DNA of 64,000 nt, from assembly GCF_964355755.1 (NCBI RefSeq), contig NC_092676.1, positions 2,090,288 to 2,154,287 of the forward strand, read 5' to 3'. Below the pieces are notes generated by a model that ran no database searches, was not told the origin of the DNA, and worked only from the letters and a program-made list of their open reading frames with translations. The stretch is from Antedon mediterranea (Eukaryota; Echinodermata; Crinoidea; Comatulida; Antedonidae). The translations under genes and the position numbers were made by a program. Every line of letters begins with the position of its first letter. Position 1 is the first letter of the stretch. Shown here piece by piece: positions 28,201 through 34,200 of this stretch.

Positions 28201-31200
28201 CACCGAAAACACAACTCTTCAACATTTGTAGTGAATAGTATTCATAGAGACAACAAGAGACGCAAGATTGCCCTTAGTAGAGGTATCCCCTTAATAGAGG
28301 TCACAATGGGCGAGTTCTACTGTGTTATAACATTATTACCAAAGTGGGATATCAATCTTAAACATGGCTGCCATTTCATCGAGCTGTGAACATAGCCAAT
28401 TGTGTTTTTACCACTAGCCCACTGGGCTTTCACCACTAGCCCTCAGGCCTCTAACCACTAGCCCATTAAACTGTCACCATCAGTCTATTAGCCTGCCACT
28501 GTTGATCTATTGAGCTGTCACCAATAGCACACTGGGCTAGATCACTGTAGATGTTATTTTACCAATGCAAACTAACACAACAAAATTGTCTAAGTAAATT
28601 TGATTTGATTTGATTTGATTTGATTTATTTCGGCATCAGTACATAAAATATCACAGACATACAATTAAAATTGGCAAATATAAAAATACCAAAATAAAAC
28701 AAGGAGGACCTAACTTTTTTATAAAACGAACCATTTTGTTTTGAGTCGTTTGTAATTTTGATTTTAAATTTTTATTTACCGTAGAAGACCATGAGCAAAC
28801 CGAATAATCGAACATCGGTTGGATTAAAGCAAAACTAAGAATTTTGCGACAATGTGAATTAAGAAATGATGATTGTCGGTACAGAAATTTCAGTCTGCCG
28901 TTTGCTTTGTTTATAACAGAGCGGGCAATGACGTCACCTGATACATTTTGGTCACAAATAAACTACATTGTAAGGAACAACTTTGGGACAACACAAAGTG
29001 TTCCCTTTAATAGGGTCCCCAAAGGAGGAGTTTGTCTTCAATTTTTGTTCTCTCTTTTGTGGAGTTCACCACTACCTTTATTCATATTAACTTTAAAAAG
29101 TTTGTCTTCAATATATTCAAGCATGCACAAAAATATTGAATGGAAATAACTTTGTCTTACCTTATACTTCATCTTTGGACAGGAATGTATATAGAATCCC
29201 ATATAATAGTACTTTAAATTTGCAGCTTCCTTTTGCAGTGCTCGGGTAAATGCTATTTCTCTGGAAAAAAACAAGAGTAAAAATAGCTGAAAAGAGGTTT
29301 TTTCCAATATGTATGGAAAAAAAAATGAAGAGAGCGAAGAAAGAAAAAGAAAAACGTGATGGCTATAGCTTGATCAGCGCCCTCTAGTAAATAAAAGTAA
29401 AGAATGGCACACCTAGGATATTCAACGATACCAACTTAGCCAAATGCTAGAAGACAGAATTGGGTTCTAAATTAATCATTTAAAATAAATGTATAGCAAC
29501 TGCTTAAAGGCCAATTTACACAGACAAGCGGTAACAGTAATAAAAATATAGAATCTATGTTATTCCTTATGAACATTTACACACAACATGGAGTGGACAG
29601 GCAGTTTCCACCCAGGATAGATACAGATTACGTAGAACAAGCTATGCGGTTTTCCGCTTACTCGTCATTGTAGCATAACTATTGCTTAATAAGGCCCTGA
29701 AAAGGTGTATTAATTGCTTAATAGTGAATAAGTATGGGAGTTCTTTTTTACTGCTTAAGCTCTGTCTACACTGTTACTGAGTGAGTGGCCGGCTTAAGCT
29801 GTCTACACTGTTACTGAGTGAGTGGCTGAGCGGTTAAGACAGTGGAATCGTAATTACGTAGCCATAACATCGGCAAGGGTTCGAGGCTCACTCGCTCCAT
29901 GGTTCTGGTGGTAGAATGAGTCTTCTCGGATAAGGACTATAAACCATAGGTCCAGTGTACACATCTAGCTCGTGTGCACTTTAAAGAACCTAGTACATCT
30001 TTCAAAACGAGTAGAGGGTTACCCCGGTGTATTAGTTCATCACAGCCACTGATCATAACTGGGCCCTCTGGGAGACCAGTCTTTGACTGAAGAGGTCGCC
30101 TAGTATAAATATATATTTCAAAAAAAAGTTTAATACTTATTACTTGAAGTGCTCTTACCTCAATGAGCTATACGTTCCAAGGTTAAGAAAGTTGTAATCT
30201 GGGTTGTAATATAAATACACTGATGATATAGAGTGAGGAAGAATGTCTAAAACACCGACCGCAATGAGGACACCACCCAACCAGTATTGCTGATGAAATG
30301 ATCCATAACCACAGCTTGGACCATCCTCCCTGTACTCCTCTACCAATGGTGACTCGCATAAGAATCTCTTAAACTAAAAAATTAAGAAGAAATATAAAGG
30401 AAATTTTAATAATTACTGTATAAATTCTCTTTCTCTTCCTCTACTAAATTTCAATCTTTACTCAATATTTTAAATTAAGTCTGACAAAAGTAGGATCTAA
30501 TTTCAACGCTGATAACTAGTGTTTATGAACACAGTAAATATTCAACTTGCATTGTCAGTGGAGGTAGCCCATGGCGCTTTCTCTGATAAAGGCCATGTTT
30601 CTGCAGCCAAAATAAAATTATCCAGTTAATTTTTTAACCAATAAAGTGCGCATGATCAGTCATTACCAAAACAACCAGATGCCTAATCACATCACAATTT
30701 TTCCAGAGGTAAAAGGTTAAAAATTATTGCATTCACTCAATAATTATCGGTTAATTTTTCTCGTTTGGAATCGGTTAAACCATGTTTCCACCGGTAGTTT
30801 ATTGGTTAATTTTCGGTTAATTTTTGGCTGGGGAAACACGCCGTAGATTTACTGGGTTATTATATTAATGAACTTACATCATGTGCAGTACAGTCCGATG
30901 CTGGTTCTTTATGAATTGTCATTTGATATTTGCGAAATAATTCATACGATTCCTTGAACGATTCTTGATATTCTAAACTAGGGGGTGCTGTCCTGATCAA
31001 TTTAATCTAAAATTAATTAAAATAGAAAACAAGTGAGCTTGAAGAAAAGAATTTGTAATGGTCTGTTCACACTAGAATTTGTAATGGTTTGTTCACACTA
31101 GAAATTGTAATGGTTTGTTCACATTGTAATTTGTAATGGTTTGTTCACACTAGAATTTGTAATGGTTTGTTCACACTAGAATTTGTAATGGTTTGTTCAC

Positions 31201-34200
31201 ACTATAATTTGTAATGGTTTGTTCACACGAGTATTTGTAATGGTTTGTTCACACTAGAATTTGTAATAGTTTGTTCACACTATAATTTGTAATGGTTTGT
31301 TCACACGAGAATTTGTAATGGTTTGTTCACACTAGAATTTGTAATGGTTTGTTCACACGAGAATTTGTAATGGTTTAACACTAGAATTTATGCCAGCAAA
31401 AGTGAAGAAAATTGTGATCAGGTACATTTTCGTTTTTTCAAGCCCATTTTTTTTGTTTAATATCCGCACCTGTCCCGTTGTACACTTATGGGGTGGGTCT
31501 TTGTGTATTGTTTCTTGGTATCGTTTATATAATTTATATGAATCATCAAAGGTTTCTTCAAACTCGGAGCTTGGAGGATTTGAGCGAACAAGTCTTAACT
31601 GAAACAAACAAACATGTTTTAGCAGATACTCAGGAGACATTATTAAGGTCATACTTAAGTAGCCATTGGGGCCAGTAGATTCATTCTTACTGGCCCAAAT
31701 TCAAGTTGAATGGCCAACAATAGTTTTAAAATAAATCAGTTTAATATTGTATGTGAAAACATGTTTTAGCAGATACTCGTACTATAGTGGCCATTGGGGC
31801 CAGTAGATTCATTCTTATTGGCCCAAATTCAAGTTGAATGGCCAACAATAGTTTTAAAACGAATCAGTTTGATATTGTATGTAAAAACATGCCTTGACAA
31901 GAGAAATATATGAATATTAATGCAATTGGTTATGTGTTTAATTCCACCACAAATTATTCGATTGATTACTACTGCTTTCTAGAAATAATGAATTCTGGAA
32001 AATCTATTTTTTTGATCTATGGATTTGCATTTTTGATTTTCAGTCATATGAATAATAATATGCATGATTGATTTTCAGCCCTCTACAAATATCATATCTA
32101 AATTATTGTTGTCATAATGAAATGTTTAATTGTCAATTATAAAATCTTGTACTGTTATCGTTTTTGGCTTAGTTGATTTTAGATATTTATCATTTATACT
32201 TTCTTAAGCCTTGTCTACACTATCAAACTTTATGTGACAAAAAATGTTATATGCCCATATATGGACATGATGATACCACTACCATATTTGGGCACATCAC
32301 ACTATTTTTGTCAAACTAGTTTGATAGTGTATTCCATCCTATGATTAGTGATCTATCTTGTATACCTTTATGTTTAGAGCAGTAGACATCATTGTTTCTT
32401 CACTTAAATAATCTTCCAAACTTTTCGGTTCATTTGAAGACTTTTGATGATTTTTTGTTGGCTGTGATTCTAGACTAGATGATTCTGCAGAATGGGTTTG
32501 TTTGTGCCGTTTTGCTTCCATTCTCAATATTTTGGCTTTCTTCCGTAGTGGTTTATTTGGATCTGGTCCAACTCCTACAAAACGATTTAGATTAAAGTTA
32601 TCCATTAGTATTTATTGTTTTTTATTTATTTATTTTAAAACATATTTATACAGGATAAAAACATATCAGGTATAGATATTGTACCTGTTTTACATATGGT
32701 CCTGATTAAAATTACTGTAAATTGTGTTAATGTAAAATATAAGGAGATCCCTCGTTTTCTAATTTATTATCATTAACTTATTTAAGCACATTGACAAGAC
32801 ATATTAAGAGCAATAGCTGCTCACTGTGCATATATAGGTGGCAATTCATTCATAAAACAAACACAAGTATTTGGAAGTGGAGTTATTTTGTCATTCATTT
32901 GTATACTATTTCATTGTTATTTCATTGTATAATAATAATAATATAATATATAATAATAATAAATTGTATAATAATATCTTAATACCTGATCTTGTCAACT
33001 TAGTGCGTTTTACGTGGGTTGACTTGGAGTGATCACTAGCATCACTTGTACTGCTGACGTCATTTGTACAACTTCCAGTTTCATCTTTAGTTTTACTTTC
33101 ATTCTTTGACTCCGCATCTTCCTCATCACCTTTTTTGGAGTCTCCTGGTTTGATACCAGTTTGTAGATGTTTACGAACTGTTATTAAACATTTCTTTTGT
33201 GATTTACTCAGTTTGAAGTCAACAGCTTGACATCTGATTGTGTATGCTGGACAACACATAATTTCCATAGATGGCTTGTACACATACTTTCCACTCCTAA
33301 AAATATAATGTCGTTATTGGTTCTCATTTATACTTTAATTAGAGCATTAAACTAGTGTTAAATTCAAATTTTAAATATTACTTCTTCTTTATTGTATCAA
33401 ACAATTTAATACAAAAGGTAGCCAAGGTATAGCCGAAGCTAATCAAGCTTGGTACCTTTTATCTTAACTAACTTAAGCTACGAAATTAACAAATAAATAA
33501 CAGAACTTTGATAACGTCAAAAACAAAACAAAAAATTTTGAATAAAAAATAAATAACATAACATAACATAAAGTGATGTATGTACTGTACTCTTTTTTTT
33601 TCAATTTACGCCCACACGTAAGGGCGTGTGGCGCAGTGTGTTGGACGTTGGACTACCGATCGTCAGACCTAGGTTCGAATCCAACTCTCGCCGCATTGCT
33701 TGTATCCGTAGGCAAGATACTTTACTTACGTTGCCTCTCTCCACCCAGGTGTATAAATGGGTACCCAGTTAGATCTACACACAACTTTGCGCTGGTTACC
33801 GGCTGCATTATGGGAGTATGTTTCTATACTGGGGTAATAATGCTTGTAAAGCGCCTTTGAGCATGATTACTCATGAAAAGGGCGCTATATAAATGTGGTA
33901 TTATTATATTATTATTATTACTCTAATAAACAAAACCCTATCAGTTCAATAGATAATATCTGATGGATTAACAATATATAAAATATTGTAAATTATAGAT
34001 TATTCTTTTATACTTAATCCAACAAAGTTCTTCTTAAATATGTCCCTTTGTTTGGTAATAGCATCACTATTATTTCTCAGGAAAATGTTGACTAATTTAA
34101 TTTTAATTTTATAAATGCAATATAGTAACAAGTACATTATAGCAAAACTCCTATTCAGTGGTCCCCTTAAATGTTCTACTATATCAAGCAATCTTGATTA

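Follow-up and report, generated by a model that had tools for sequence, protein, structure and literature searches.

A tandem pair of homologous 129-nt exons in the ATE1 gene of Antedon mediterranea, probably spliced as alternatives

The ATE1 gene of Antedon mediterranea contains two adjacent homologous exons, here called a and b, which have the same phase and are both in frame with the two neighbouring exons. Judged from the DNA sequence, they are very probably an old tandem duplicate of one exon, the copies of which are spliced as alternatives, and mature mRNA carrying either a or b would give rise to two arginyltransferases differing solely in 43 residues. The mammalian exons 7a and 7b are both 129 bp long, and in the mouse ATE1 isoforms a 43-residue region is derived from one of two such adjacent 129-bp exons. 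The pair in Antedon is a useful extra example of the known ATE1 exon pairs and is no surprise.

The ATE1 gene and its exon pair

One ATE1 gene was found in the assembly (354 Mb, 18 contigs). It lies on the minus strand, and eight constant coding exons and one of the pair make up the nine coding exons of a transcript. Positions refer to the window, the whole 64-kb stretch of DNA that was analysed, which is 2090288-2154287 of contig C7. The exons were assembled from splice signals, and the introns of the model are of the GT-AG type. Coding exon 1 (37923-38025), placed by frame and donor, has the start codon at 38025 and encodes a Cys-Gly-Tyr-Cys motif; the match to the ATE_N domain starts at residue 20 and is continued by exon 2 (34274-34337) and exon 3 (32986-33296), the latter encoding the end of ATE_N and a variable linker. 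Exon 4 (32366-32574), which aligns with human ATE1-2, has a phase-0 end before the pair. The exon after the pair (30159-30373) and the following one (29161-29260) encode parts of ATE_C, and the C-terminal part is encoded by an exon at 16668-16785 and by the last coding exon at 16287-16459, which includes the stop codon, both of them covered by the match to human ATE1-2. All these exons are on the minus strand. The isoforms with a and with b have 473 residues each and score 86 bits for ATE_N (cut-off, 27) and 142 bits (a) or 141 bits (b) for ATE_C (cut-off, 25). Human ATE1-2 (8tzv) matches isoform a with an E value of 4.6e-133 over residues 6-113 and 115-472. The identification of the gene as ATE1 in the earlier note is therefore upheld by both domains above cut-off and by the match to the human enzyme along its length.

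Upstream, ATE1 lies head to head with a gene of the Tim10/DDP family (84.8 bits), with about 400 bp between the two start codons (38025-38431). This neighbour is presumably TIMM13, and a promoter common to the two genes is possible from their arrangement; a bidirectional promoter of mammalian ATE1 was reportedly described by Hu in 2006.

Exon a (31470-31598, minus strand) and exon b (30878-31006, minus strand) are each 129 nt long with phase 0 at both ends, and they are separated by an intron of 463 nt (31007-31469, minus strand). The translations of both are free of stop codons and have 43 residues apiece, corresponding to residues 230-272 of the protein for exon a, to which exon b would be the alternative. 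Aligned without gaps, a and b agree in 20 of 43 residues and in 72 of 129 bases, and their BLOSUM62 score is 127, compared with a mean of -33 (standard deviation, 13) for shuffled sequences, none of 20,000 of which scored as high. Exon a is preceded by the acceptor GTTTGTTTCAG, ending in GTTTCAG, and followed by the donor CAG|GTGCGG; exon b is preceded by the acceptor AATTAATTTTAG, ending in AATTTTAG, and followed by the donor GAT|GTAAGT, so that, on the sequence, AG and GT are canonical at both exons. The exon before the pair has its end at 32366 and the one after it has its start at 30373, in either case in phase 0. The description given in the earlier note, a tandem pair of equal-length homologous phase-0 exons of 129 nt and 43 residues with 20 identical positions between borders at 32366 and 30373, was thus correct. 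The ATE_C match begins at residue 249 in isoform a and at residue 248 in isoform b, and the swap accordingly spans the linker that leads up to the catalytic domain, together with the first residues of that domain. The part of the swapped segment that belongs to ATE_C bears the motif Y-x-L-[YF]-x-x-Y-Q-x-x-I-H.

At the sensitivity of the search, the assembly showed neither a third copy of the exon nor a retrocopy: a query made of exon a and the protein start of the next exon gave three matches among the best candidates scored, one to each exon of the pair and one to the exon that follows in the same ATE1 gene. Within the window, tblastn with a, b and the human exon gave nothing convincing as a third copy, the best other matches having E values of 0.007 (a, with an internal stop), 0.50 (b) and 0.66 (human exon). 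Retrocopies of ATE1, which might serve as a record of splicing, were likewise absent among the best candidates scored, since the ATE_C, ATE_N and exon-a queries gave two, one and three matches, respectively, all within the gene. In viral contigs, seven stretches matched a pattern and none was a relative. Another search of the assembly, with a homeodomain query, gave a compact cluster of Hox genes on contig C2 (7827800-8206132), with twelve homeobox matches within 380 kb, which from their homeodomain signatures we take to be the ambulacrarian set of Hox1 to Hox8, Hox9/10, Hox11/13a and two more posterior genes; the match at 7848422, presumably of posterior type, is on the strand opposite to the other eleven. 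Two matches to troponin, a bilaterian protein, likewise agree with a bilaterian genome, and a search for mitochondrial COX1 gave no matches.

Divergence of the two exons and their probable use as alternatives

The identities between a and b are distributed over the three codon positions as 24, 33 and 15 of 43. Among the 20 residues common to both exons, 8 use the same codon, while 8.8 +/- 2.1 are expected under synonymous saturation, as computed from the codon usage of this ATE1 gene. No similarity is left in the 200-nt flanks of the two exons, for which 484 and 251 of 500 shuffles were as good, whereas in the control with the exons themselves only 1 of 500 shuffles was as good. The codon-position pattern and the synonymous saturation point to an old duplication, both copies of which have been kept as protein, and the divergence, being of the coding type, is compatible with protein-level selection on each of the exons. 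The exon of human ATE1-2 is identical to a at 17 of 43 positions and to b at 13 of 43, and over the next 105 residues the human and Antedon proteins are identical at 76. In this fast-changing segment of 43 residues the a-b split is therefore comparable in extent to the split between human and Antedon.

The reading frame by itself does not enforce a choice between the exons: inclusion of both would give a protein of 516 residues and omission of both one of 430 residues, and the frame is kept either way. Consequently exclusion, if it is real, must come from regulation. It is conceivable too that a and b are joined in one mRNA, which would preserve the frame, or that one of them is a dead relic, but this is an improbable explanation, as both exons are open, have canonical splice sites and have diverged in the manner of coding sequences, and as two copies of the segment, of which the solved human enzyme has one, would double the beginning of the catalytic domain. 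At the place of the pair human ATE1-2 has one copy, which aligns without gaps, and in the yeast enzymes there is one match to the second half of the exon. The pair is best read as mutually exclusive, because the solved human enzyme carries one copy of the segment, and such use of a and b is likely. The proposal of mutually exclusive splicing in the earlier note is accordingly retained as likely, while its novelty outside vertebrates is not, as such exon pairs in ATE1 of fly and worm are already in print (PMC9741552). Under mutual exclusion both exons would be used and each would exclude the other, and the swap may tune the properties of the enzyme or its choice of substrates, by analogy with the differences among the mouse isoforms. 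Mouse ATE1 is described as having four splice isoforms with different target specificity (PMC6212499), and mouse meiosis as selecting a mutually exclusive Ate1 exon (PMC3905889).

Introns of the pair and possible mechanisms of exclusion

Among the ways by which two adjacent exons may exclude each other, a frame shift does not apply to this pair. The U12-type consensus occurs at no donor, so a clash between U2 and U12 splice sites is unlikely, and the intron of 463 nt between a and b is not obviously too short for splicing. The most likely kind of mechanism would be competing base-pairings in the pre-mRNA, as reported for human ATE1. In human ATE1, competing RNA structures make exons 7a and 7b mutually exclusive (PMC11802352 and PMC8052449); among the elements R1 to R5, R1 and R4 are rivals for R3, and the pairing R2-R5 spans 30 kb (PMC11802352). 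Docker/selector structures, known from Dscam1, 14-3-3 zeta and others, solve the same problem of exclusion, and tandem duplication has been proposed as their source (PMC6071210 and PMC10790352), but none is supported in the ATE1 introns of Antedon.

In the three introns around the pair no convincing RNA structure for exclusion was found, in an analysis based on a single genome, which by itself yields no covariation. Gap-free stems between the three introns did not beat shuffled sequences, since 30, 57 and 27 of 100 shuffles did as well as the best ones or better. A pairing between the donor region of a and the acceptor region of b has an energy of -18.1 kcal/mol against a shuffle mean of -12.4, with 44 of 1000 shuffles as good; it was picked after inspection of the list of stems and is a weak lead. 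Compared with 50 shuffles, the fold of the a-b intron with 20-nt flanks is less stable (-69.5 vs -84.8, z +2.7), and exon a, the intron and exon b as a whole are also less stable than shuffles (z +1.5). RNA duplexes of whole introns are uninformative, since the program joins whole segments; 10, 91 and 44 of 100 shuffles did equally well. A search of Rfam with 30374-32365 gave no matches.

Repeats account for the larger part of the three introns. The intron that precedes exon a has at its beginning a short inverted-repeat element (32216-32342, minus strand), a dispersed repeat with at least 81 matches when the best 40 of 2727 candidates were scored, the best other copies being 93% identical, and a 128-bp repeat unit in 1.8 copies lies likewise in this intron. 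The intron downstream of exon b holds a dispersed inverted-repeat element (30590-30845, minus strand) with at least 41 matches when the best 40 of 300 were scored, its best other full-length copy being 84% identical. A 26-bp minisatellite of 12.7 copies (31048-31376, no strand assigned) occupies 329 of the 463 nt that separate exon a from exon b, and when this intron was compared with the assembly, simple repeats being passed over, it matched itself alone.

Other repeats are present elsewhere in the window. Intron 1 of ATE1 holds, at 34650-37850, an element of about 3.2 kb with a 16-bp unit arrayed in inverted orientation at its two ends (34667-34879 and 37645-37842), the interior of which belongs to two repeat families, one at 35000-36594 with many copies of 96-99% identity and the other at 36595-37500 with copies of 94-95% identity (best 40 of 1745 scored); it looks as if one mobile element had been inserted into another. 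In addition, a 30-bp tandem repeat extends over about 1.5 kb at 47820-49286; on either strand several of its frames are free of stops, as a unit divisible by three permits.

Origin of the pair and its relation to known ATE1 exon pairs

ATE1 is among the genes for which tandem exon substitution events are recorded in human, fly and worm (PMC9741552), and the suggestion that such a pair outside vertebrates is new had therefore been anticipated. Among the literature examined, ATE1 exon pairs beyond vertebrates appear solely in that source. The titles and abstract openings of the open-access papers listed in the searches name no ATE1 exon pair in echinoderms or hemichordates, ATE1 is absent from the main text of Abascal 2015 (PMC4465641), and the extract of PMC10115844, on the structure of yeast ATE1, contains no discussion of the 43-residue segment. 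The events in Drosophila melanogaster and Caenorhabditis elegans concern the same gene and are of the same kind as the one in Antedon (PMC9741552). The likeness to mammalian 7a and 7b is that the same segment of 43 residues of the same gene, gap-free against human ATE1-2, is affected; the difference is that the introns in Antedon contain dispersed repeats and a minisatellite.

Two origins of the pair have to be weighed. There is about an even chance that the duplication was a single ancestral event shared with vertebrate 7a/7b, going back at least to the ancestor that chordates and Antedon have in common. Such an event agrees with the occurrence of the pair in one and the same segment of ATE1, 43 residues that align gap-free with human, with the saturation of synonymous sites between a and b, and with an a-b identity (20/43) close to that of the human exon with its Antedon counterparts (17/43 and 13/43; next 105 residues, 76/105). 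The human ATE1-2 exon, however, is no closer to a or to b than a is to b, and its lead to a over b amounts to four positions and is lost in 10% of bootstraps. The three quartets of a, b, the human ATE1-2 exon and the second human exon are within 0.04 log units, with AU p values of 0.53, 0.53 and 0.36 on 43 residues and with one row, the second human exon, provisional. A rooted test without the provisional row gave p values of 0.27, 0.63 and 0.47, the root being two yeast sequences that cover part of the exon; with so few taxa neither test tells the topologies apart. Moreover, the fly, worm and human ATE1 events are cited as evidence of convergence in PMC9741552.

Independent duplication of the exon in the Antedon lineage and in vertebrates is the other origin, whose probability we put slightly short of one half. 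It agrees with a and b being slightly more alike (20/43) than a and human (17/43) or b and human (13/43), and with PMC9741552, where, for 42 events in genes that have events in human as well as in fly, common ancestry is accepted for 7 and the rest (35 by subtraction) are judged convergent, ATE1 being cited in the course of this argument. On the other hand, the high divergence of a and b and their synonymous saturation exclude a recent duplication. Equal length and phase are no evidence on origin, since independent duplications of one 129-nt exon would share both; the inference of the earlier note, that the duplication came before the vertebrates and that the switch is conserved in Antedon, gains no support from these features. 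Returning to the single ancestral event, it is a tentative reading, at a little under even probability, that the pair predates the split of chordates and ambulacrarians, perhaps that of all bilaterians, and that the fly, worm and human events are partly one ancestral event.

The pair in Antedon mediterranea is a data point between vertebrates on the one side and fly and worm on the other, and it bears on the question of ancestral or repeated origin. Should the pair predate the divergence of chordates from ambulacrarians, a 43-residue switch at the way into the catalytic domain would have been kept for more than half a billion years. If the pair is ancestral, the N-degron pathway would long have included a choice between two arginyltransferase forms, and the function of that choice would be open to study in sea stars, sea urchins or acorn worms.
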